From positions 1 to 41,393 of the IMG/VR virus record IMGVR_UViG_3300031227_000128: a DNA stretch of 41,393 nt; one strand, 5' to 3'. Below, piece after piece: positions 1,151 to 41,393 of this stretch (position 1 is its first letter; each line of letters begins with the position of its first letter). The notes under the pieces are model-generated. The model saw only the letters and a program-made list of their open reading frames with translations, did no database searches and had not been told where the DNA came from. The position numbers and the translations under genes are program-made. Source of the DNA: a virus.

Positions 1151-2110
1151 TTAGGCGGCGGCCCCACTCATCGCCATCCCGCCACCCATCCCTCCGCCTG
1201 CCCCGGCTCCGGCTCCGGCTCCGGCTCCAGCTGCTCCGGCACCGGCCCCGCCGCCGCCAAAACTTGCCCCGAACCCGCCTTTGGAACCTTGACTCAGGAG
1301 GTTTCGCCAGCCAGAATCATTCATCAAGATCTTCTTGATCTGATCCCAGCTCATACCCTTATATTTTTCTTTAGCCTTGAAGAGACTTTCCCTCTGATCG
1401 TCGGTGAGGCGGCTCTTATTTATCCAATCCGGCATCTTGGATTTACCGGACGATTCGGCATTTTGCACCCCTTTGCCGGTGCCCCTGTCCCCGACCAAAT
1501 TTTTACTTGCATCGGACTGGGGCTGGCTGGAGGCTACAGTAACCGAGGGAACGCTGCCGCCGGTCCCGCCGCCGCCGCTTTGTTCATTGCCACTGCCTTT
1601 GGATCCTTTGTTGGGTGTTTTATTATCGCCCAGCTCGTTTGTGGGGGCTATGCCACCTCCTTCGCTACCTGGGCCGTTGCCAACCAATCCCCCCCGCATC
1701 ATATCAGTCATCGAGTCGTAGTATTTATCATGACTGTTCTTGGGCGCTAAGACCTGGCCGGCGTATTTCGATTCCATATCGGTCATGCCACCGCGGTAGG
1801 GGGCGTTGGGGTTCATCGATTCGGTGAATCGTCCCCAGCTGCTGATGCCTTGCTGTCCGACCGCTCGCTCCCGCAGGATCGCGGCCATTTCGGCCTGTCG
1901 TCCCTCGGGCGTTTTTTGACCCAGCAGCCGCTCGATGCTCTCGTTCTCGGCCCGGGCCATTTTATGGGCTTCCACTTTATCGAGGCCCTGGTTGATGTTG
2001 TCACCCATGCCATCCATCGAGCTCAACAATGTTTTTAAATGTTCGGAGCTCGCGGTCCGGGTGGTGGTCGTAAATCCGGTCCCGCTGAGTCCTATTCCAC
2101 CAATTCCCAT
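1151..2110 (-). CDS. Probable internal/ejection protein, Gly-rich C-terminus
   Basis: This 319-aa protein is of a type not matched to a named family. The N-terminal third is Gly/Thr-rich, then comes a helical region (about 25-80) with a possible coiled coil. The middle is low complexity (Gly, Ser, Asn). A compact helical segment near residues 225-270 (MPDWINKSRLTDDQ...) precedes an Ala-Gly repeat tail. A ribosome site (AGGAAAGGAT) lies upstream of ATG 2110. It sits between two other putative ejection proteins and directly upstream of the giant protein, the position of internal core or ejection proteins in podoviruses (compare T7 gp14-16 and P22 gp7/gp20/gp16). Role inferred from position and composition only. 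Confidence 0.7.
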   Translation of the reverse strand: MGIGGIGLSGTGFTTTTRTASSEHLKTLLSSMDGMGDNINQGLDKVEAHKMARAENESIERLLGQKTPEGRQAEMAAILRERAVGQQGISSWGRFTESMNPNAPYRGGMTDMESKYAGQVLAPKNSHDKYYDSMTDMMRGGLVGNGPGSEGGGIAPTNELGDNKTPNKGSKGSGNEQSGGGGTGGSVPSVTVASSQPQSDASKNLVGDRGTGKGVQNAESSGKSKMPDWINKSRLTDDQRESLFKAKEKYKGMSWDQIKKILMNDSGWRNLLSQGSKGGFGASFGGGGAGAGAAGAGAGAGAGAGGGMGGGMAMSGAAA

Positions 2111-2134: not shown

Positions 2135-2878
2135 TTACGCGGTTGCTCCGCCAGCGCCGCCGGCGACTGCCATCCCGGCCGCCGCGTACGGGTTGCCCGT
2201 CTTGGATCCCTCACTGAAGCCCTTCATCATCCCGGCGATCATCTCGCTGAACCGTGAGGGCTTTGCCTCAGTCATGTACCAGGGTCGCTGGTACCAGGGC
2301 TGATAGGACAACAGCTGCTGGGCGGCATCGGCCTTCATGGCGGTCGTCTGGTTTTCCTGGTTGAAGCTGGCCTGGTTCTGGGCCTGTTCCAGTTGCCGCG
2401 GCAGTCCGCCATATTGGCTGGACGCCGCCACGCGGGTGTATTCGTTGTCGCGAGCCCGTTCGGCCATCAACAACTGGCCCAGCAGCTGCAGCCGCTTGTT
2501 AGACATCCCCTCGCGGTACTGGCCCTCGGATTTAAGCGCCGTGGACGAACGGGTCATGCCGGCTTTTTGAGCGAAGCGACGAACGGCACCGGCCCCCTGT
2601 TCCTCTTCGGCCTGCAGCTCTTGCCGCATCCCCTGGTAATAGGGACTGGTGGCCGGATCGTATTGCGCATCGCCCGCCAGAATTTTTGCCAGAATGCCCT
2701 GTCCCTTGGATTCGTTGGCGCTCATCCCCGCAATCTTCAGTTCCGGAGCCTCATAGTCACTCTGCAGTCCCTGCAGGTAGAGCCGGTTCTGAGCGGCCCA
2801 GGGAGTTTCCATTAATTTGGCCTTGGGTCCCATGCGGACCCGGGCTTTCCGACTGCTAAAAAATTCTTCAAATCCCAT
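2135..2878 (-). CDS. Probable internal virion / DNA-ejection protein
   Basis: A 247-aa protein that is mostly helical and Gln/Ala-rich. The central stretch, about 80-190, is predicted coiled-coil-like (QELQAEEEQGAGAVRRFAQ...). The C-terminus (about 215-247) is hydrophobic and Gly/Ala-rich (KTGNPYAAAGMAVAGGAGGA), a tail often seen in small podoviral ejection proteins that meet membranes. The start at 2878 has AAAGGA 7-8 bases upstream. It lies 24 bases upstream of the next gene in the late operon. No enzymatic motif is visible. Assignment as an ejection-apparatus protein rests on size, composition and gene order. Confidence 0.68.
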   Translation of the reverse strand: MGFEEFFSSRKARVRMGPKAKLMETPWAAQNRLYLQGLQSDYEAPELKIAGMSANESKGQGILAKILAGDAQYDPATSPYYQGMRQELQAEEEQGAGAVRRFAQKAGMTRSSTALKSEGQYREGMSNKRLQLLGQLLMAERARDNEYTRVAASSQYGGLPRQLEQAQNQASFNQENQTTAMKADAAQQLLSYQPWYQRPWYMTEAKPSRFSEMIAGMMKGFSEGSKTGNPYAAAGMAVAGGAGGATA

Positions 2879-22987: not shown

Positions 22988-24148
22988 TCATTCCTTTCCG
23001 ATAATGTCCGCTTGTTTCTTACTATCAATGGTCAGGTAGTATTTCAGGGTGGTTTCAATCGAGCTGTGACCCGCTACGGCCTTCAGGTCCGCGATATCCA
23101 TCCCCGCCTTACTCCAGCGAGTCAGGGCACTGCGCCTTAAGTCATGCAAGGTGAACCGCGCCTTCTGCTTGGGGCCCAGGGTCAATCCCGCCTGTTCACA
23201 GATCTTCCGGAAACCATCGGACGCCCGGGGGTGGGTGTCCAGTGTAGGCTTGAGGCTGGTGCTCTTTACGATGCGCCCCTTGCGGTACTGGCGTAAGTCC
23301 CAGGTACACAACATGTAACTCAGATGGTTCATGAGGGATCGACTGGCCACAATGGTCCGGTTGTGTCCGCTCTTAGTGGGGTGGTGCTTCTTATTGCGGA
23401 TCACCAGCCGGGGCGGATCATCATCCAGGTACAGGTCCCGATTCTCCAGGGCCAGGATCTCTCCGATCCGCAGCCCGGAATGGTAGCCCAGGTGCAGGAT
23501 CGTCAGCCAGTCCAGGTTAGGGGCGGCCTGGACCAGCCTGGCAAACTCGAGCGGGTTCACCGTCTCGTGGTAGGTGTCCACCTCATCCACAAACAGTGCC
23601 TGTGTGATCGGGTTCACTTCGGTGGTCCATCCCCGCCGGATGGCCCGGTTCCAGGCAGCCCGCAGCAGCCTCAGATCCGTATTGGCTGTGGCGGGGGCGT
23701 TACATATCAGCCGCTGCTGGATATACAACTCGCAGAGCCGGTAGTTCACATCATCCAGCCACACCGGCTCCATCCCGTTGGTGATATACCGATACACCAG
23801 ATCATACTTCTCTACCGTCGAGGCCCGTCGGTGGGAGTCCAACCAGTCCAGATCCATCTCGACGAACTTCCGCCAGGTGATCCGATGCTTGCTGGTCCAT
23901 TCGGATAGCTGGGCCCGTACCTGGGCCTGGGCCGCCTTCGCATCGCGCTTACGCCACTGCTGCCGGCTCCAACTGCGGCGTTTGCCGGTCAACGGGTCGA
24001 ACCAACGGATCCGCCAGATGGCCCGACGCGCATCATACATCTTCCCCTTGAGGCGGGGGAGCAGCCCACACTTCTCTAGCCACACCCCTCCGTTCCGCAC
24101 ATTGCGGGGCGAGGGGATCTCTTTCGGTTTCCGCGGAGCAAGCTTCAT
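22988..24148 (-). CDS. Tyrosine recombinase (second integrase)
   Basis: 386 aa. N-terminal arm-type region (MYDARRAIWRIRWFDPLTGKRRSW), core-binding domain (about 95-200), catalytic domain with Arg (YHSGLRIGEILALENRDL), Lys around KKHHPTKSGHN, HxxR (HDLRRSALTRW) and GHSSIETTLKYYLTI with the nucleophile Tyr. All key residues are visible. It is transcribed with the early operon on the minus strand, unlike the plus-strand integrase. It could be the excisive, dimer-resolving or alternative-site enzyme. Confidence 0.85.
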   Translation of the reverse strand: MKLAPRKPKEIPSPRNVRNGGVWLEKCGLLPRLKGKMYDARRAIWRIRWFDPLTGKRRSWSRQQWRKRDAKAAQAQVRAQLSEWTSKHRITWRKFVEMDLDWLDSHRRASTVEKYDLVYRYITNGMEPVWLDDVNYRLCELYIQQRLICNAPATANTDLRLLRAAWNRAIRRGWTTEVNPITQALFVDEVDTYHETVNPLEFARLVQAAPNLDWLTILHLGYHSGLRIGEILALENRDLYLDDDPPRLVIRNKKHHPTKSGHNRTIVASRSLMNHLSYMLCTWDLRQYRKGRIVKSTSLKPTLDTHPRASDGFRKICEQAGLTLGPKQKARFTLHDLRRSALTRWSKAGMDIADLKAVAGHSSIETTLKYYLTIDSKKQADIIGKE

Positions 24149-31470: not shown

Positions 31471-32349
31471 ATGGGGAAGAGTGCGAGCCATTATGCGATC
31501 AAGGAGGATCTGGGGAAAATAATTTTAGCTTGGCAACAGGAAAATAACCTGCAGTGCGTGGCCAATCATGCCGTCGCTAAAAATACTTATCTCCGCAAAT
31601 ATCTAGTGGCCCAAGGTGTCACCGGTTTTATTGATATTACTGCCCCTTCTATCCAGGCGTTCAAATTATCATGCGGTTTTAAAAAAAATACTGGGCGGAC
31701 CATACGAGCCAAGCTGGCGGCCATCAGTAATTTTTGCGAGTACGCCATCGACCAGGGTTGCATGAGCTGCAACCCCTGCCAACATATTAAGCGGCCTCGC
31801 CTGCAGGAAGGGGTCGTCGTTTACTATTATGAACAGGAAGTCCGACTGATCCTGAAAGCGGGACAGGAACAGAATATCTATCTGCCGGTATTCATGGCTC
31901 TCAAAACGGGCCTGCGGGCCGGAGAACTTCGGCGGCTGCAATGGGAACAGATTGACTTGCATCGCCGGGTGATCACGGTTATAAATACTAAGTCGAAAAA
32001 AATTCGCTATGTGCCGATCGCCGCGGATATGCTGGCGGTGCTGGTGTCCCGCGTAGGGACGGGACCGGTATTTCCGAACCGCTCGGGGCAATGCTGGGGA
32101 CGATCCACATGGGACAATTGGATCAAAAAACTAGCGGCCGCTTTGCCTCTGATTTTTATTAAGCCCCGGCCCAACGGCGGACCCGGGAACGGCTGGCACG
32201 GGTTCCGATCCACCTGGATCACCAACTGCGTCAACGCCGGCATCCCGGTGCATAAGGTCGCCAAGTGGGCTGGACATTCAAATATAGCAGTCACCCAGCG
32301 GTATCTGTTTGCCGCATCGGGCTACGATGATGACATCGAAAAATTATGA
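31471..32349 (+). CDS. int: Tyrosine integrase (XerC/D-like length)
   Basis: 292 aa, the only confident plus-strand gene. Core-binding N-terminus, catalytic Arg in KTGLRAGELRRLQWEQ, Lys near NTKSKKIRYVP, HGFRSTW (HxxR), WAGHSNIAVTQRYLF with the catalytic Tyr. No arm domain. The tRNA-Pro half-site upstream is its likely substrate. Its own promoter lies upstream and a small membrane ORF follows. Confidence 0.88.
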   Translation: MGKSASHYAIKEDLGKIILAWQQENNLQCVANHAVAKNTYLRKYLVAQGVTGFIDITAPSIQAFKLSCGFKKNTGRTIRAKLAAISNFCEYAIDQGCMSCNPCQHIKRPRLQEGVVVYYYEQEVRLILKAGQEQNIYLPVFMALKTGLRAGELRRLQWEQIDLHRRVITVINTKSKKIRYVPIAADMLAVLVSRVGTGPVFPNRSGQCWGRSTWDNWIKKLAAALPLIFIKPRPNGGPGNGWHGFRSTWITNCVNAGIPVHKVAKWAGHSNIAVTQRYLFAASGYDDDIEKL

Positions 32350-32746
32350 AGGGAGTTATGATGGAAGTAGTACTGAAAGTTCTTGGTGGATTACTAATGG
32401 TGGCCATCCCGGCGGCCGTCTGTGGAGCGATTGTAGTTTTGGGGGGCCGCGGTTTATTATGGTTGTTATCTAAGTTTAAGAAGTAGCTGGTTGGTGACGA
32501 TAGCGGAGGAGGATGATACCGGAAGACCGTTTCGAGTAAGTGCTTGATCGCTTCCTGATTGGTTTTAATATTGAGCATGTTTTCCTCGATGCGGGATCCC
32601 TGCTGCTCCAGCACCTGCGTATGGCAGCTCAACCGGTAGTTGACATGATACGCGCCCAGGCTGATCAGCATCAGGGACATCGTACCCATAATCGACCACA
32701 GCAGGGTCGCGTTGATTTCGATTTTTCCGGTACTGTTTGTCGTCAT
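32291..32746 (-). CDS. Single-TM protein at the end of the late operon
   Basis: 151 aa from ATG 32746, which overlaps the giant protein's stop (ATGA). One TM (LLWSIMGTMSLMLISLGAYHV) follows a short N-terminus, then a coiled-coil stretch (HTQVLEQQGSRIEENMLNIK). The last part is low complexity and lies antisense to the plus-strand genes. May be a holin- or spanin-type protein; uncertain. Confidence 0.5.
   Translation of the reverse strand: MTTNSTGKIEINATLLWSIMGTMSLMLISLGAYHVNYRLSCHTQVLEQQGSRIEENMLNIKTNQEAIKHLLETVFRYHPPPLSSPTSYFLNLDNNHNKPRPPKTTIAPQTAAGMATISNPPRTFSTTSIITPFIIFRCHHRSPMRQTDTAG
32361..32486 (+). CDS. 41-aa membrane peptide downstream of integrase
   Basis: MEVVLKVLGGLLMVAIPAAV, then CGAIVVLGG, WLLSKFKK. 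AAGGGAG lies 5-8 bases before ATG 32361 (32358 possible). Hydrophobic with basic end. It converges with and overlaps the minus-strand gene 32291-32746 by about 196 bases. Confidence 0.5.
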   Translation: MEVVLKVLGGLLMVAIPAAVCGAIVVLGGRGLLWLLSKFKK

Positions 32747-35700
32747 GGCGTCGCCCTTTCCGGGGTTCGGCGGCGGGCTCCCTTGGGGATCCGCTGCTGT
32801 TCGCGTCGTTGCGGGGATTTTATGTTCTGGCGGATCCGGTACTGCATCCGATTCATTACATCGAGCATGGTCATCCCGGTACGACCCGGGTGGTCGGTAT
32901 TCCATTGGCGGACCAGGGCTCCGACCTGATTCCGTTTGCCAGAGTTCATCAGAGCTTCCGCCTCGGCCAGGGTTTCCTTCCAGGTGCGGCTGGCAGCGCT
33001 ATCCTCGTAATACGACAGCGATTTGAGCTTGATCCGTTCGAGCCGTTCGGCGAGCTCATCATCTACCAGCGGGTGAGCGATGACCGCGTCTACCTGCAGG
33101 TTGAACTTGTGGATCTCGGCTGGGGTAATCTCCAGGTTGCGGATTGTCTTAGATTTCTCCTCCCGCTGGGCACTGAGATCGTAGGCGTGCCGCCAGAGTT
33201 CGGAGACTTTTTTATCTTGCTCACTGATGGTGCCGCGGACGCCGATGATGGCCCCTGCTGCCGAGATCAGCTTGCTGTTGGTCTGGCGGAACAGGTGCCG
33301 CCCACTGCTGAACGGGATCGGCTCGACCCGCTCCCAGATGTGTCCGGCAAACTTGGCGGCCTTGATCGAGGCGGGTTCGGTTTGGTAGAAGACCTCATCG
33401 CCCTTCCAGTTCACCAGGACCTCTCGCATGGCTACTGTGACAACGTCCTTGGCGATTCCCAAAACCGACGATTTCATGCCTCCCATTGTCTTGATAAAGT
33501 TTTGGACCGCGGTCTGAGATGCTTCCTGCGGATCCCCACCGAGGGTAGCTTGCCACAAGGGCTTGACCAGCTGCTCGTAATAATCCTTGTCGGAGGTCAT
33601 AATATCGATGTACAGGGGACGGTCATACCGGTCGGTCATGCCCGGGACCTTGATCTTGAACTGGTCCCGCAGCTCATCCTCATCCTCGGGCACCTCGGGG
33701 GGTTCTCCGGTCAGAATCATGTTAGCGATCGAGGCGGTCAGCCAGGTGAAGAATAGGTATTGCGGGACATTCAACGCACTCCGCCAGGCTCGGCCGCGAG
33801 GCCCGCCCTCTTTATCGTAGGCGACGCCCAAGGCTTTGTACATGGTTCGGTAATTGCCTTCGCGGAAGCCAGGAGCCAGGAAGAAAAACCGCATGGCACT
33901 GATCGTGGTGCCGGAGCGGCCGAACAGGACCTTCTCGTTCATCTCGCCGTAGAAGTTCTGTCCCTCTTTAATCATCTTGATCTTGGCCCGGGCGTCTGGC
34001 TCTGTTCCCTCTTTTCTGAGGTAGCTATCGACCTGTTGGCGGTATTTGATGTATTTGATGTAGGGGATGTAATTATCGAACACGAAATTGCTGAGGGCCT
34101 TATACCCCTTGATGCTGATGTCCAGCCCTTTTAGAGGGAACTTCCAGGCCCACTTGTCATCGTTGTGTTTCAGCAGCCGGTTGATCCCCTGGTGGATGTC
34201 GTCCTCGAGGCTGCCGGTATGGCTGCCACCCAGTCCGAGATACTCCTGGTATTCGCCGGTAGCAAATATAGGGTCATCTTTCTTGAACTTCCCTTTGAGC
34301 TTCCAGCGGGTGGGGACCAGGAACCCCCCGAGCCCGGTGTCGACCATAGCCTGGGCCATGATGGTCCGCAAGTGGAAAAACGGTACCAGGAACTTAATAG
34401 CGTTCATCATGTGCACCGCCTGACGGAACTGCTTCCAGCCCCGCTGGCTGGTCTTGTTGACCGCAATCATATTGCTGACATGGCGGGCGACGTCCGGATG
34501 AAAGAGCAGCCCGTTGAGCTGCGGATCCGGGATCATCTTCCACTCGGCCAGCTGCTCATCCGAGGCATTCAGCCGCTCGATGACGGCCACCCCGTGACTC
34601 GATTCCAGCAGCTCTTTCTTCAGCTTCCGGATCGAGGCCAGCCGGAGGATCCCCAGCATCTCCCGCCGTGCATTGTCCACCGGGTTAATGTCCTTCAGTT
34701 CCAATCCCAGGGCCACCCCATCGGCGACCGAGGGCAAAATTTTGTGCTTGAGAAACGTGGTCGTGGTCTTGTAGTGCTCCAGGGCGTTGACCGCTTTGTG
34801 GGTTTTCTTCCAGGCCCCATAGAAGTAATCTTCGTAATAAGTGGCATCCATATCCATGGACAATAAGAGCTTGTAATTGTAGTCGTAGATCTGCCGCATC
34901 GCAAACACATAGTCGCTCAGTTCTTTGTCGTCCCCAATACGACCCAGGGCATCCCGCTGCAGCTGCTTGCCTTCTTCAGAGTAGGGCTTGCCCAACGCCA
35001 TCATAATGTCCTCTTGCTGCTGGGGTTTCAGGTGAGCCATTTTGTCCCGCAGTTGACCGATCGTCATATCGCCCAGGGTGGCCACTTTCTCCAGGGTCCA
35101 CCGTAATCCCTCTTTTTCGGGTAACGCGGCGAACTCGATGATCTGGGTGTGGACATTCTTATCCAGCTGCTCGGTCAACTTGGCTGGCTCCACCGCGGCG
35201 AGAAAGGCGGTCTGCACTTTCTTGAGCGTACGACCCAGCCAGTTGGTTTGTTGGCGGGCGGTACGCCGGGCCGCAGCGGCGGCAAACAACCGATCGAGCT
35301 CGGCATCCTTCGCCGGGGCCTCCTCATTAAATCCGGTCGACTGACTCTGATCCTGTTTCCATGTCCAGTATTCCTCCGGCGTCTCGAATTTCCGCGGCCG
35401 GGCGTTCTCCAGCTCCTCGACCTGTTTGCCCCGCACCTGGCGATCGCGACGCTCCAGCTCGGTAGCGATCTCGCCCAACCGGGTCTGGACCTCGGTGAGT
35501 TTCTTGGGGCCTAGCCCTCCGCGCCGCTGCATCCGGTCCAGCTTGGCGAATTCATCGTTCAGCTTCGCCGCGGCGGTCTGGGCGTCCTTGCCGCCGTCCG
35601 CCTCTTGTCCACTCACCTGGTATTTCGGAAGTCCTTTCTGTAACGCCGTCCGCAACTCCTCGGTGATCTTAATCGCGTGGGTATGGGGGCTTTCCCCCCG

Positions 35701-38700
35701 GCCCGTGTGACTGGCACCGGCATAGGTGCTGACATCGATCTCGATCGATTCGGTTTTGAGCCCGTGTTTTTTCACCAGCTTATTGGCGATGTGAGGGATC
35801 ATTTCATCGTAGAACGTCTTCATCCCCTGGCCGCCTACCTGCAGATCGTCCCCAGTAAATTCGTAGACCCCGGCCCGGGCCTTCTTGGCGATCTCGACGC
35901 CGACATACTCCCCCAGTTCCGCATCCGGGATGATCTTGTCGATACGTTGCACATCGTTCTTGTACGCCTTCATCAGCCAGGATCTTCCTTCTTGCCCGTG
36001 TCGCGAGTCGAGCTTGATCATGTCCACCTGGTCCCCCAGGTCGTAGCGTTCGGTCTGCTGGGCCCCCGTGGTCCAGGCCAGGTAATCGTAGTTTTCCTGG
36101 GCCGCCATCAGCAACATCCTTTTGAACGTCAGATCCGGCCAGTTCTTTTTGAAGGGGGCATCCGGGGCCAGCTGCCCGGTGTCTTCCTCCAAACCAACCA
36201 GGTTTCTTCGCAGCCACCGGGCCCGGTCCCCTGTCTCGTAGAGTTGGGCGTGGAGGGGTTGAAATTCAGCTAATTGTTCGCTCGTGTGTTCTGTCTTCAG
36301 CCCTGGATCGTTGGGTTTGATATAGTACTGGAGGAGGTAATAGTTTTTCATTTTGGGGTCATCATATTTTTTTGCCGAAAGGAAGGTTTCATTGGTGGTG
36401 TGGAAGATCCGTACCCCTTCAAACCCCTCTTGCGTGTCAGACCGGAAGATCAGGGTGTCACTTATATTCCGACCCAGCTCCTCCTGGATGTACTTATTAT
36501 ACCGGGCCCGGGCTTTCGTGGCCCGGTTTTCGGCTGCGTCCACCTCATCTTGTAATTTTTTATGGAATTCTTGATAGGCGATCGGATCATCCTGATACCC
36601 ATATTCCCGTCCCTGCTGGTGCCAGTCGCTCTGAAACTCCTCCACCAGTAACACTCTCCCCCCATCGGCTTCGTTACGGTGATCGCTGAAGCGGGTGTGC
36701 ATCAGCAAATTCTTGGCCATGTTGAAGTGGGGGGACTGGTAGACCTTATCCCCACCAGCGGGCGGTTTGATCAGCAGCAGCTCGCGGTAGTTTTCCCCGC
36801 CGCCCAGGGTGTATTTGCCATATTCCGTTTGGTCCTCGGTCAGGTCGTTGTATGCCGATTCCATCAGGGCCAGCAGCCTGATCTTCACTTCCTCGGTAAT
36901 AGTGCCCTTTTTATACATCCTTTCCGCCTCAGCGTAGCCCCGAATAGTGAGTAGATCATCCCCGACATGGATGTGGAATCGGAGCGGATTGTCATCGTCG
37001 CCCCCTCTTGTCGAGATTCCTTCTTGCTCCAGGGCTTCAATCTCTTCCCGGTGTTCTTTCCTCCAGTCGAATACGTCGATTAGATGCGATTGGGTGCGCA
37101 GATCCTCGACCAGCTGCACATCGTGGTCCTTGATCCACTGCAGCACCTCGACCTTAGTGATCGATTCATTCTCATCCATCGACTGCAACAGCCCCGCCAG
37201 CCCGGTCCAGTCCCATTCATCTTTTTTAATCCCCGCCTTCAGCAGCATCTTCTCCAGCTGACGCACGGGCATGGACTTGCCCATCTTCTCCTCGATCACC
37301 CGTACGGATTTCAGATACAGATCCGGGGTCAGCTTCGATCGCACCTGGTACTTGCGTCCCTTCTCATCGCTCAGCACCTGGTATTTCCCCACCTGCTTCT
37401 GCTGTTCTTGCTGCAGATATTCGAACGCCTCCACCGACTCCGGCATATCCTGGAAGCTCCGCTTGGTCCCCGGAGTGATGTAATAGTCTATAATGTCTTT
37501 CACGGTTCCTTGGTCGGCCTGATTATCTTTGCTATAGCCTTCGGCTTGCTGCCAGCCCCGGATAATGGTTGCGGCCGCGGCGTAGTTGAAACGCGGGATC
37601 ACTACCTTCTGTTTGCTCTGTACCGCCGTATCGGTCACCAGTTTCATGTAGCCGGGATGGGTCGTCACGGGTTGCCCGTTAGGCATCACGATCCCCTCAA
37701 ACCGCGGAACCAGGTCCAACTCCTTGCATTGCTGCAAAAACTTAGCCCGGTTGTTTTGATGCTGCGCATATTCCAAATGCGGCACATCCTCCCCCTGGTG
37801 TGCCTTCCTGTCCCGCCAGGTGTCATTCTGTTTACGCGTGTAATCTTCCCAGCCCATGGTGTGGTACACCTCTGCCGGGATCCCGGAGCGGTGGAACGGA
37901 ATGATCAGCTGGATCCAGTCCTGGTCCAGGCCCCAGACCACCTGGGCGTCGTTGGAGGCCATGAACATCACGCCGGCATCGGCGTATTGTTTCGCCAGCT
38001 TTTGCACCTCGTCCCATTCCATCCCATCATCGGTATTGGGTGTAATTTCTATCCCGTTTTCTCCGCCGCGGGCCGCAATGGACATATTGATCCGCATCCG
38101 AGTGGCCCCGAAGATCCGCACAAAGTCCGCCTGCTTGGTGTAAAAGTGCATCGGGTGCCCGCCGCCCTCGGCGGCGACATCGGTAATCAACTGCATTAGG
38201 TCGATGATGTGATCTACCTTGAAGTCGCTATTGCTGAATCCCCGCAGCCCGGCCCGGGCATCGATTTTCTCCCACTCCCCGGCCGTGATCTTCCGCACCT
38301 GGTCGAGGTACTCATTGTATCCGGTCGCTATTTTGGCCACGGAGATCGCCTGGGCGTTCCCCCGAGCTGTCTCCAGGTCACGGGCTACCCGCTCATCCTG
38401 GCTATGCTCACTTCGATAGTCCTCATCCACAAACAATCGATCATCCATCGCCGCATGGGGCCGGTTCTGGGCCCGATCTTCTTTCCACTCTTCAATCCAC
38501 TCCTCCAGCAGGGCCAGTTTCTGTTTCGATCGGCTGGTGCCGTACAGTAGTTTTTCCAGCTGTTTACGGGGGATCCGGGTGCGTTCGGGCTGGGCGTCCA
38601 GAACCCCAAAAATCTGCCGTTTAGATTCCAGTACCGGGGCCCGTCCCGCCCGGTAATTTCGCCGAGCGCCCTCGACGTAGCAATACAGGCAGGGGACCAT

Positions 38701-41393
38701 CTGCTTCATGCGCCGCATATAGAACGCCAGGTGAAACAGTTCCCGTGCGGTCAGGGGACGGGCGATCTGGTGCTCGATGGCCGCTATATTGGCATTGTAA
38801 CGCAGGTTCCGCGGACAGATGGTATCCAGATCCACACTGAGGACATAGTCGGCATTGGAGCGGATCGGGGACCGTCGCTCAGACGGATCGACCGCGTGCG
38901 GCAGGAACTGGGGCTTAGCCGCCAGGATCTGCGCGGTTTGGCGGATCGCTTTGATTAAGTCTGGGATCTTTCGCCGCACGGAGGCCGGGGCGGACCCGGC
39001 TTGTTTTCTGAGTTCGGCCTCCCAGGCAGGGAGTGTCTCAATGGAATACTTGGTCGGGGTGGGCGGTCTTATGCTTTGGGTGGCAGGGTCGTAGCCGGTG
39101 CCGTTTTCTTGGCGCGGAGCTTTCGCTCGGCCCTCCACTTTTTCAGGAAGCGCCACTCGCTGGTCGTCACCGGTTCGATCGAGGGTTGCCTCGTTGGCAG
39201 CGGTATGGGTTGTGGGAACTTGATTACCATGTGGTTCATTATCGGCTTTCCCCACCGACTTGTCAAGGGATTTTTTCGGGGCTTGATATTTCGGCAGCGG
39301 CGGGGTGCTTTTTCCAGGGCTATTGGTTACGCCGGAATCAGTCTTACCTCCCCCGCGTGCCGCTTGTTTTTGGAGGGCCTCTGCCACGGCTACCGCCACT
39401 CGTTCTGCCTCTGCCGGCGTGACGGCACCGCCCCGCCGGGCCAGGCGGGTAGCGCGTCCGCGTGGACCTGTGTACGGTTCTTCTTTCTGTTGAGATTCAA
39501 ACGCTTCCGTCGCGGTCATGTCTGCCCGTATTATCTGCCATCCCGCGGGGAGCTGGGCCCGGGTTAGGGCCGCTTCATAGGGCGGATTGCTTTTCGCCCC
39601 GAATCCGCCCGGCAGATCCACATAGACCATATTTTTCCCGTAGACATCCCCACTCAGGGTTGTGGGGATATTGTGCTGGTTCAATGCGTCCACTAATGGC
39701 TTCACCTTGGGGTTGATGGCCACATCATTTGTTTGTTCAATTTGGGTGCGGGTCTGTCTCTGGGCCTTGTTTTCCCGCACCTGGTGCTGGACTTCGCTGG
39801 CTTTTTGGGCCTGAGTTTTACGTTGGTATGCTTCCCCGGTCCGTACCCTCTCGAAGGTGGCTTCAGCACTCGTGGCGCCGAATTTCTCCAGTAATCTCTT
39901 GAAGAATACGCGGATCTTGCGGAAGACCGGATGATGCGTGTCCCCTTTCCAGTCCGCGTACGCCTGGGCCATGGTTTCCTCATCGCCGTAGCGCCGGTCC
40001 AAGGACCGTTTCTCGCCCTCGGTCAGAGCCATGTCCATGGCGACATGGAACGATTCGTGGTCCAGGGTGTTGACCGGATTCTGGGATTGTTTCGACAGGA
40101 GGATCAGCTGGGCAGGTTGGATCACTTTCCCGGTGGTCTGGTCGGTGACCTGGATCCAGGGCTGGGGGATCGTGGTGCCGGCAACGTATTGTCCTTCCTC
40201 GAGTTGTGTCTGCCCGTATCCCTCTTCGAGTGCTTGCGGGTCGGGATCGATCTGTTCCGCGGTTTCGATCAGGATGGGCGATTTGGGACGATTCGGCATG
40301 GTGACCAGGTAGCTGTGTTCCCCGGGCATCCGTCCACCTACCTCGGTAATATCGGTGGCGGTGGGGAAGGCAGCCTCTACCATCGCCTGATTCAGGGTCC
40401 CTGGCGTGGGTGGGGTCGTAGCTTCCGGTTGGGTTTCTATAGGAGGGGTTGCTTTGGCTGCCGGTGTCGGCTGTCCCGTCGGTTCCGCACTGGCCGCCGG
40501 CGGGGCAGCTTGCTCGACAACCGGTGCTGCGGCAGCCTCCTGCGTTTCGGCCTGCGCCGGAGTAGTAGGGGTAGGGGTAGGGGTCGGGGATGGCGGCTCT
40601 TTGATTTCCAGCGGTCCCAGGTGCTCCGTCGCATCCTGCAGGTTGTTGACGGGCGCGGGTACTGGTATGTCGGTGGTCGGGGTGGTCGGGGTGGTCGGGG
40701 TGGTCGGGGTGGTCGGGGTGGTCCGTCGCTCCAGCTCCGCCGTTATGGCTGGATCTCCCTGGTTTTGGTCGGAAAAGTCTGCCAATTCTTCATCGGTCAT
40801 ATTGGCGAGGATGATTCCCATCATAGGAGTCTCACTGGCCGCTGCACCTGCTGCGAGGCCGCCAGGGGGAAGCTGGTTCCCCGTAGGAGGGGGTGTTTTG
40901 CCGTCAGCGGCGGATGGGGGCGTCTGAGTAGGTTCTATTATTTTTTGCACTCCGCTTCCGATCGCGACGGTACCGCCACCGGTAAACGCCGCGGGCAGCC
41001 CCACCATGGCCAGTTTCTCGAGGTAGCCCAGGATCCCCTCCTCTTCCGTATAGATCGGGATGTCGGCCACTGCGAACATCGTGGTAGATTGGGCCAGTTC
41101 CTGCAGCATCTCTTCCAACGCCTCCCCCAACGCTCCACTCATCGCCGCGACCAGCAGGTGTTTCTCCTCCATCTCGAGCATCCCTTTGCCGAACTTCTCC
41201 ATGAACTTCCGGATCGCCCGTCCCTGCAGGGCACTCTTACCGCCGGAGATCATTCGCAGCAGGTGACTGGCCTGGGTCTGTTCGATCGCCCCGGCCACCG
41301 GGCCGTAGATGTTCTTAACGAGCTTGGCTTTCTCCAGCTGCTCGGGCGTGATCGGCCCGTCACCGTTGGCCTCCATAAAATAATCCAGCGTGG
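32743..41393 (-). CDS. Giant polyvalent virion protein (3,165 aa in total; runs off the right edge)
   Basis: Joined with 1-1114 it has 3,165 aa. In whole-protein numbering: hydrophobic N-terminal helices (about 235-262, 390-430), a Pro/Thr linker (about 505-525), a zincin domain with HESFH (728-732) and a downstream acidic/AYADW segment, a Cys-containing barrel-like domain (about 1120-1520; C1142, CLYC 1184-1187), a phage polyvalent segment with EEFQSDWHQQGR (about 1867-1878) and QQTERYDL (about 2060), and a C-terminal region (about 2340-2950) like LPD38-type domains (FGRSGTTISAMRFFFLAPGF). Probably ejected with DNA to act on the host. Domain names beyond the motifs are inference. Confidence 0.85.
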   Translation of the reverse strand, partial: TLDYFMEANGDGPITPEQLEKAKLVKNIYGPVAGAIEQTQASHLLRMISGGKSALQGRAIRKFMEKFGKGMLEMEEKHLLVAAMSGALGEALEEMLQELAQSTTMFAVADIPIYTEEEGILGYLEKLAMVGLPAAFTGGGTVAIGSGVQKIIEPTQTPPSAADGKTPPPTGNQLPPGGLAAGAAASETPMMGIILANMTDEELADFSDQNQGDPAITAELERRTTPTTPTTPTTPTTPTTDIPVPAPVNNLQDATEHLGPLEIKEPPSPTPTPTPTTPAQAETQEAAAAPVVEQAAPPAASAEPTGQPTPAAKATPPIETQPEATTPPTPGTLNQAMVEAAFPTATDITEVGGRMPGEHSYLVTMPNRPKSPILIETAEQIDPDPQALEEGYGQTQLEEGQYVAGTTIPQPWIQVTDQTTGKVIQPAQLILLSKQSQNPVNTLDHESFHVAMDMALTEGEKRSLDRRYGDEETMAQAYADWKGDTHHPVFRKIRVFFKRLLEKFGATSAEATFERVRTGEAYQRKTQAQKASEVQHQVRENKAQRQTRTQIEQTNDVAINPKVKPLVDALNQHNIPTTLSGDVYGKNMVYVDLPGGFGAKSNPPYEAALTRAQLPAGWQIIRADMTATEAFESQQKEEPYTGPRGRATRLARRGGAVTPAEAERVAVAVAEALQKQAARGGGKTDSGVTNSPGKSTPPLPKYQAPKKSLDKSVGKADNEPHGNQVPTTHTAANEATLDRTGDDQRVALPEKVEGRAKAPRQENGTGYDPATQSIRPPTPTKYSIETLPAWEAELRKQAGSAPASVRRKIPDLIKAIRQTAQILAAKPQFLPHAVDPSERRSPIRSNADYVLSVDLDTICPRNLRYNANIAAIEHQIARPLTARELFHLAFYMRRMKQMVPCLYCYVEGARRNYRAGRAPVLESKRQIFGVLDAQPERTRIPRKQLEKLLYGTSRSKQKLALLEEWIEEWKEDRAQNRPHAAMDDRLFVDEDYRSEHSQDERVARDLETARGNAQAISVAKIATGYNEYLDQVRKITAGEWEKIDARAGLRGFSNSDFKVDHIIDLMQLITDVAAEGGGHPMHFYTKQADFVRIFGATRMRINMSIAARGGENGIEITPNTDDGMEWDEVQKLAKQYADAGVMFMASNDAQVVWGLDQDWIQLIIPFHRSGIPAEVYHTMGWEDYTRKQNDTWRDRKAHQGEDVPHLEYAQHQNNRAKFLQQCKELDLVPRFEGIVMPNGQPVTTHPGYMKLVTDTAVQSKQKVVIPRFNYAAAATIIRGWQQAEGYSKDNQADQGTVKDIIDYYITPGTKRSFQDMPESVEAFEYLQQEQQKQVGKYQVLSDEKGRKYQVRSKLTPDLYLKSVRVIEEKMGKSMPVRQLEKMLLKAGIKKDEWDWTGLAGLLQSMDENESITKVEVLQWIKDHDVQLVEDLRTQSHLIDVFDWRKEHREEIEALEQEGISTRGGDDDNPLRFHIHVGDDLLTIRGYAEAERMYKKGTITEEVKIRLLALMESAYNDLTEDQTEYGKYTLGGGENYRELLLIKPPAGGDKVYQSPHFNMAKNLLMHTRFSDHRNEADGGRVLLVEEFQSDWHQQGREYGYQDDPIAYQEFHKKLQDEVDAAENRATKARARYNKYIQEELGRNISDTLIFRSDTQEGFEGVRIFHTTNETFLSAKKYDDPKMKNYYLLQYYIKPNDPGLKTEHTSEQLAEFQPLHAQLYETGDRARWLRRNLVGLEEDTGQLAPDAPFKKNWPDLTFKRMLLMAAQENYDYLAWTTGAQQTERYDLGDQVDMIKLDSRHGQEGRSWLMKAYKNDVQRIDKIIPDAELGEYVGVEIAKKARAGVYEFTGDDLQVGGQGMKTFYDEMIPHIANKLVKKHGLKTESIEIDVSTYAGASHTGRGESPHTHAIKITEELRTALQKGLPKYQVSGQEADGGKDAQTAAAKLNDEFAKLDRMQRRGGLGPKKLTEVQTRLGEIATELERRDRQVRGKQVEELENARPRKFETPEEYWTWKQDQSQSTGFNEEAPAKDAELDRLFAAAAARRTARQQTNWLGRTLKKVQTAFLAAVEPAKLTEQLDKNVHTQIIEFAALPEKEGLRWTLEKVATLGDMTIGQLRDKMAHLKPQQQEDIMMALGKPYSEEGKQLQRDALGRIGDDKELSDYVFAMRQIYDYNYKLLLSMDMDATYYEDYFYGAWKKTHKAVNALEHYKTTTTFLKHKILPSVADGVALGLELKDINPVDNARREMLGILRLASIRKLKKELLESSHGVAVIERLNASDEQLAEWKMIPDPQLNGLLFHPDVARHVSNMIAVNKTSQRGWKQFRQAVHMMNAIKFLVPFFHLRTIMAQAMVDTGLGGFLVPTRWKLKGKFKKDDPIFATGEYQEYLGLGGSHTGSLEDDIHQGINRLLKHNDDKWAWKFPLKGLDISIKGYKALSNFVFDNYIPYIKYIKYRQQVDSYLRKEGTEPDARAKIKMIKEGQNFYGEMNEKVLFGRSGTTISAMRFFFLAPGFREGNYRTMYKALGVAYDKEGGPRGRAWRSALNVPQYLFFTWLTASIANMILTGEPPEVPEDEDELRDQFKIKVPGMTDRYDRPLYIDIMTSDKDYYEQLVKPLWQATLGGDPQEASQTAVQNFIKTMGGMKSSVLGIAKDVVTVAMREVLVNWKGDEVFYQTEPASIKAAKFAGHIWERVEPIPFSSGRHLFRQTNSKLISAAGAIIGVRGTISEQDKKVSELWRHAYDLSAQREEKSKTIRNLEITPAEIHKFNLQVDAVIAHPLVDDELAERLERIKLKSLSYYEDSAASRTWKETLAEAEALMNSGKRNQVGALVRQWNTDHPGRTGMTMLDVMNRMQYRIRQNIKSPQRREQQRIPKGARRRTPERATP
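40676..40722. repeat. Nine-base microsatellite in the giant gene (Pro-Thr-Thr repeat)
   Basis: Tandem GGTCGGGGT units code for a TTP run. A near-identical, shorter array lies in the scaffold gene at about 14535-14565. Length is a multiple of three, so copy-number change keeps the frame. Confidence 0.75.
41127..41393. repeat. Right copy of 267-bp terminal redundancy
   Basis: Same sequence as bases 1-267 with three synonymous differences. Shows that the ends overlap. Confidence 0.93.

Follow-up and report, generated by a model that had tools for sequence, protein, structure and literature searches.

HExxH domains in giant phage proteins have been assigned to zincin peptidases in the main text of the work on phage polyvalent proteins (Iyer et al., 2017; PMC5512222). 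The word “radical” is absent from that main text, although an LPD left unnamed in that work could overlap with the domain described below. For the HExxH domain of the N4 vRNAP, a recent preprint cites fused radical SAM/alphaKG-HExxH enzymes (PMC12633501). Campylobacter phages carry 11–12 radical-SAM genes, which are discussed as metabolic enzymes (PMC2853527), while the accessible sections of a review on ejection proteins do not mention cysteine (PMC8954989). A literature search confined to texts outside subscription journals and supplements brought up no account of a radical-SAM protein packaged in virions and none of ejection proteins that exclude cysteine. Both protein classes are known separately; what is new, in the sense that it was not found in the literature searched, is the combination of a polyvalent ejected protein with radical SAM, and the cysteine-triad family to which the present protein belongs. 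The best reading of this locus is that it probably encodes an ejected polyvalent protein in which a divergent radical-SAM enzyme stands beside a metallopeptidase-like domain.

The DNA analysed (the window) comprises positions 1 to 41,393 of a viral record (IMGVR_UViG_3300031227_000128). Upstream of the giant gene and on the same strand, a PHROGs scan of 20 ORFs identified terminase, portal and major head proteins together with tail-appendage-like and fibre-like proteins, the relatives of the portal being distant (21–25% identity). Because the scan also named two integrases, a kinase and a replication protein, the phage is temperate as judged from its gene content. The two integrase-family genes of this one phage record are different (22988–24148, minus strand; 31471–32349, plus strand), and a predicted tRNA-Ala (ggc) near the second (30772–30865, minus strand) could be an attachment-site relic or a phage tRNA. 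The late module ends with the giant gene, which two Cys-free ORFs (247 and 319 aa) precede. A tape-measure family was absent from the 20 other ORFs scanned with PHROGs, in agreement with one half of a preliminary description of a “podovirus without a tape measure”, the podovirus half being a deduction. The giant protein was also rejected as a tape-measure protein, having no match to such a family and a predicted barrel fold.

Positions 1–267 and 41127–41393 of the window are identical at 264 of 267 positions, and the three mismatches speak for a mixture of strains or for ends that are nearly identical, and against an exact assembly overlap. Since ORF 1114–2 overlaps the main piece in frame, coordinate arithmetic across the joined ends gives a gene of 9498 nt, encoding about 3165 aa. 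An assembly artefact was rejected as the source of the giant gene, the frame continuing through the 267-bp overlap. The single late gene of about 9.5 kb proposed in the preliminary description is upheld; its main piece does lie within 32743–41393, and the part at 1–1114 had been omitted. Below, residues are counted along the 2882-aa piece (full chain, plus ~283), the two pieces having been analysed separately. The features of the gene and of its neighbours are listed in Table 1.

Table 1. Features of the giant gene and of the adjoining late ORFs in the window.
Feature	Coordinates	Strand	Residues (2882-aa piece)	Basis and remarks
Giant ORF, main piece (2877/2882 aa)	32743-41376/41391	minus		ORF call; 5′ end open at record end
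N-terminal piece of giant gene (371 aa)	1114-1	minus		ATG at 1114; Cys-free; in frame across the 267-bp end overlap
Pro/Thr-rich linker	40372..40944	minus	about 150-340	Composition; 11-20 Pro per 100 aa
Zincin-like HExxH segment	39952..40104	minus	430-480	Motif; H445, H449, then a Glu-bearing stretch (EETMAQAYADW from 471)
Radical-SAM-like partial TIM barrel (predicted)	37792..38874	minus	840-1200	Family comparison and predicted models
First Cys of triad, after strand beta1	38815..38817	minus	859	Alignment and model
Cys-x2-Cys (CLYC), start of helix alpha1	38680..38691	minus	901-904	Alignment and model
Domain 3, an unannotated phage domain	35422..36924	minus	1490-1990	tblastn, scans; EEFQSDWHQ, AWTTGAQQTERY, VGGQGMKTFYDE
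C-terminal region	32743..35394	minus	2000-2882	tblastn, phmmer; without detectable relatives among the loci compared
Late ORF directly upstream of giant (319 aa, Cys-free)	1151..2110	minus		Candidate companion ejection protein, by position and composition
Late ORF (247 aa, Cys-free)	2135..2878	minus		Candidate companion ejection protein, by position and composition

On the window, Pfam, NCBIfam and PHROGs yielded a single weak match, to PHROG 7348 (“endolysin”), inside domain 3; an endolysin function was rejected on that basis, PHROG 7348 itself being a 2564-position giant, and Pfam matches to CdiI_2 and ParE were rejected as below cut-off. Matches of the whole piece by tblastn were confined to domain 3 in phage records and to residues 1379–1895, the domain 3 region, in plasmids. 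An 8-residue pattern scan built on the window protein alone gave no matches, the 371-aa N-terminal piece had none in phage sequences, and among the collected loci the zincin and C-terminal segments of the window had no relatives by iterated phmmer. No membrane segment was predicted (KD hydropathy scan, threshold 1.6). The Pro-rich linkers noted in the preliminary description correspond to a Pro/Thr-rich stretch. The “LPD-type segments” proposed there failed to appear: Pfam gave no LPD on the window, and the LPD38 and LPD23 models had no match in the record, a negative that is partly weak in that one of these two model searches matched nowhere at all.

Residues 840–1200, which no Pfam model clearly covers and which are silent in Pfam, NCBIfam and PHROGs, belong to a family that is widespread, as comparison of viral loci indicates; neither this spread nor the cysteine pattern is mentioned in the preliminary description. 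The DNA pattern for PCxYCYVE was found at 32 viral loci, 26 with a real ORF, two with trivial ORFs (12 and 39 aa) and four without such a frame, and most of the 26 ORF-borne loci were matched to the window over residues 720–1318 by tblastn. With further members from two alignment-guided scans, the family comprises 51 viral contigs and one Bacillota MAG, all of which carry a triad of the form C-x(8 to ~55)-C-x2-C. Scanning of 84,980 bacterial and archaeal genomes confirmed one locus out of 23 pattern matches; exact patterns undercount, so this is a sign, not proof, of a bias to viruses. The triad is spaced C859-x41-C901-x2-C904 in the window and has x8 between its first two Cys in compact forms (L012, L016, L270, L037); long and compact forms are one family by hhalign (99.7–99.8%). 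The first Cys is in none of the search patterns. A chance triad was rejected, at least 20 contigs recruited by a Cys-free pattern keeping all three. Invariant in 31 diverse members (window numbering) are D854, C859, C901, C904, Y905, R910, G1048, R1050, D1056, K1086 and H1167, with Tyr905 replaced by Phe in three rows outside this alignment (L060, L274, L275). The gene, the family, its conserved triad and the pairing of that triad with HExxH in half of the relatives are read directly from the sequences. Solo radical-SAM-like proteins of about 216–218 aa, with Cx8CxxC and a CC..C..C..CG tail, are encoded at L270:3917–4567 (+) and L037:1650–2303 (+). By eye, the L270 gene adjoins DNA polymerase and RecA-like genes on a 200-kb viral contig. 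The Cys-rich tail of the compact forms is missing from the window.

A partial TIM barrel is predicted by AlphaFold both for the window domain (pLDDT 73.6, pTM 0.71) and for the solo 216-aa relative L270 (pLDDT 85.7, pTM 0.85). In the window model, strand beta1 (850–853; model 101–104) is followed by C859, two insert helices and the CxxC that opens alpha1, and then by beta2 (GLRGFSNSDF), beta3 (FYTK), beta4 (RINMSI), beta5 and beta6. Structural rows 1–30 for L270 are all radical SAM, led by QueE (Z 9.4; rmsd 4.3 over 181), PFL-AE (9.0), viperin (9.0) and spore photoproduct lyase (SPL; 8.6), with Z ≥ 8 for 24 of 1000 chains. Among its 50 best structural entries, 46 are what we take, partly from entry titles, to be radical SAM, the rest being three GH71 entries and one methyltransferase component. 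Rows 1–21 of the VIA re-alignment of the window model are likewise all radical SAM (QueE Z 7.4, RlmN 7.3, SPL 7.2), the best Z of 7.4 falling below 8, in the range that the tool warns is one of common arrangements. No PDB match of either model reached E ≤ 0.001 in Foldseek, whose top rows for L270 contain viperin among designed and other TIM barrels. In a viral model library, the best named structural relatives are GP88-domain and radical-SAM proteins, a GP88-domain protein standing at rank 2 (E 5.4e-5).

Pfam Radical_SAM (PF04055) matched 0 of 24 and 0 of 31 members, hhalign reached at most 21% against true radical-SAM groups, which is not significant (DUF5131, 1.9%; control DHPS, 0.1–0.4%), and profile and sequence searches of the PDB returned nothing or merely spurious helices. 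The CxYC is in register with two true radical-SAM groups in these hhalign comparisons, which are not significant overall. A partial (beta/alpha)6 TIM barrel is present in the predicted models, and three Cys in the beta1–alpha1 loop are indicated by position and conservation; the spacing of these Cys (x41/x2 in the window, x8/x2 in compact forms) is not the canonical CxxxCxxC. Because sequence profiles reach known radical-SAM families without significance, the claim is limited to a predicted radical-SAM superfamily fold with its triad, without assignment to any named family. Within that limit, the Cys-containing, radical-SAM-like barrel of the preliminary description is supported by the alignment and by both models. 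The non-canonical spacing, the lack of a significant profile match to catalytic radical-SAM families and the absence from the window of the Cys-rich tail would also suit an ejected polyvalent protein whose barrel performs no radical chemistry, being either a relic that still binds metal or a structural domain with iron-sulphur or zinc, of use for example in redox sensing or as a refolding aid. We regard this as unlikely, given that non-Cys residues near strand ends (R, GxR..D, K, H) are invariant over 31 members, in the manner of an active site, and that the triad is retained in a class of proteins that otherwise drops Cys.

The 2882-aa piece has one HExxH alone, at 445–449, 456 residues before the CxxC. 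This metallopeptidase-type motif supports a putative zincin-like segment, as in the preliminary description; MPTase-PolyVal (PF18818) had no match in the record at E ≤ 10. Among 34 non-duplicate relatives with at least 390 aa upstream of CxxC, 17 have HExxH 246–389 aa upstream and four more have HExxxH, the upstream HExxH being missing from half of the relatives. In total, 24 HExxH occur in 35 ORFs, against 2.2 in shuffles. The 21 aligned segments of the relatives, two of them duplicates (L029, L032), show HExxH followed about 45–65 residues on by (D/E)E..AD, a gluzincin-like arrangement. The segment of the window aligns poorly with these and, as aligned, is of another subtype, with a Glu about 22 residues downstream of HExxH whose alignment is not confident. 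Fused radical SAM/alphaKG-HExxH enzymes were reportedly described by Morishita in 2024. A similar joint modification of peptides or proteins by the HExxH and radical-SAM domains, with no peptidase involved, would account for the co-occurrence of HExxH and triad in half of the relatives, and such enzymes are cited for the N4 vRNAP domain in its preprint (PMC12633501); it is nevertheless improbable, since the segments of the relatives are gluzincin-like and the main text of Iyer et al. (2017; PMC5512222) places such domains of phage giants among zincin peptidases.

Cysteine is rare in the giant protein. It occurs in the 2882-aa piece at 859, 901, 904 and 1222 only, giving four in about 3165 aa for the whole chain, as opposed to 95 in 6952 aa for 19 other minus-strand genes of the phage (Fisher, 1.8e-11; Poisson, 2.6e-14). 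The ejected proteins of T7 (gp14, 1/196; gp15, 0/747; gp16, 0/1318) and N4 (vRNAP, 0/3500; 66 kDa, 0/644; 16.5 kDa, 0/150) have similar counts. Most other T7 and N4 late proteins have some Cys; because the N4 coat protein (0/401) and gp57 (0/405) are also Cys-free, absence of Cys alone is not proof of ejection. Among 21 ORFs of at least 1500 aa that carry domain 3 without CxxCYx4R, 13 are Cys-free and the remainder have one to five Cys. The triad is present in all 39 barrel-bearing rows of at least 1000 aa, two of which are duplicates and many of which are cut at locus ends. Five of these rows (L006, L024, L027, L034, L282) have exactly three Cys, the triad itself, another five (L009, L020, L023, L026, L033) exactly eight, the triad plus a five-Cys CC..C..C..C tail, and others up to 18. 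Cysteine exclusion in barrel giants, as counted from sequence, is a strong tendency, not a strict rule. Proteins threaded unfolded along an oxidising route (virion, periplasm) would lose Cys, and those that remain would be needed. The pattern points to an ejected protein with a functionally required triad, and because Cys would be excluded from ejected proteins that cross unfolded, retained triads would mark genuine cluster sites.

Domain 3 occurs in at least 120 viral stretches and is common to some of the barrel giants; there is no Pfam model for it. Its motifs E.QSDWHQ, AWTTG.QQ..RY and GG.GMK.FYD (window and L135–L254) are found in giant and smaller phage proteins alike. Several unrelated domains (HExxH, radical-SAM-like barrel, domain 3) are combined in the one late protein of the window, as in polyvalent proteins, and giant relatives carry the polyvalent domains LPD38 (L028) and ART-PolyVal (L005, L023), which agrees with the polyvalent company proposed earlier; three other relatives scanned (L019, L006, L016) had no Pfam matches. 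The giant of L023 lies between endolysin-like and tail-fibre-like genes. In L036 the giant is preceded by an 862-aa ORF, by an internal virion protein (phrog_418) and by a T7-like tail protein (phrog_376). We take these two PHROGs to be those of T7 proteins, and by analogy the giant of L036 would occupy a T7 gp16-like slot. This slot, the position of the giant gene at the end of the late module and the cysteine exclusion in common with proven ejected proteins all argue against a late cytoplasmic enzyme or processing protein that is never packaged. Such a protein, which we consider rather improbable, would be compatible with two solo relatives that clearly fall outside the giant virion proteins (L270, with replication genes around it; L037, in a MAG). 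Gene order, the slot in L036 and the exclusion shared with T7 and N4 likewise lend the injection proposed in the preliminary description a support that is indirect throughout, and that does not extend to the disarming of hosts mentioned there.

As an ejected polyvalent protein, the gene product would serve a temperate and probably short-tailed phage as its large ejection protein: synthesised late and packaged in the virion, it would enter the next host as an unfolded thread and regain its fold inside. Its three invariant Cys would hold a [4Fe-4S] cluster that cleaves S-adenosylmethionine to give a 5′-deoxyadenosyl radical, used in the newly infected cell for C–H modification, and the upstream zincin-like domain may cut the giant chain or a host protein. 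Packaging and ejection are very probable and binding of a cluster by the triad a shade more so, while catalysis by the barrel is likely. A nucleic acid or nucleotide is a tentative first guess for the substrate, as it is on these that the structural neighbours QueE, viperin, SPL and RlmN work; PFL-AE and SuiB act on proteins or peptides. That phages carry active radical-SAM enzymes in their virions and inject them, in the form of domains within giant ejection proteins, with retained triads as genuine cluster sites, seems to us evenly balanced. If true, cysteine exclusion with retained metal triads could provide a general test, from sequence, for ejected phage enzymes, a cheap criterion for both the ejected proteins and their functional metal sites. 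Phages would then deliver radical enzymes with their DNA, an enzyme class of which no description was found in the literature searched; an oxygen-sensitive radical enzyme that passes through the virion and refolds in the host would add a new kind to the activities that phages deliver, and the origin of its cluster is a testable question. The barrel family also supplies uncharacterised phage enzymes ready for study, and its solo forms of about 216 residues suit bench work.

Compared with radical-SAM enzymes (QueE, viperin, PFL-AE, spore photoproduct lyase, RlmN), the window family shares the predicted fold, the triad in the beta1–alpha1 loop and a GG ending beta2, and differs in its Cys spacing, its lack of a Pfam match, its long helical inserts and its position inside a giant phage protein. 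GP88-domain (PF17338) viral proteins are among the best structural matches to the barrel, although the GP88 model matches only 1 of 24 and 2 of 31 members, weakly (best E 0.0008), with no match in the window and no useful matches anywhere in direct model searches; Che8 gene 88 was rejected as a GP88 member, being too short at 156 bp. In Gp37/Gp68 (DUF5131, PF07505), SxSD and TK are in register with the barrel family at a profile–profile probability of 1.9%. The window protein resembles N4 vRNAP and T7 gp16 in being encoded by the last large gene of a late block, after smaller companions, and in its cysteine exclusion, and N4 vRNAP has an HExxH domain too (PMC12633501). Unlike them, it has no sequence match to either and shows neither polymerase nor transglycosylase, and it carries a Cys triad that both lack. 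The barrel family and domain 3 are set apart from phage polyvalent proteins by having no Pfam LPD match, whereas the window protein shares with them the form of a giant multi-domain late protein with a zincin-type HExxH, as described in the main text of Iyer et al. (2017; PMC5512222), and its relatives share their LPD38 and ART-PolyVal domains.
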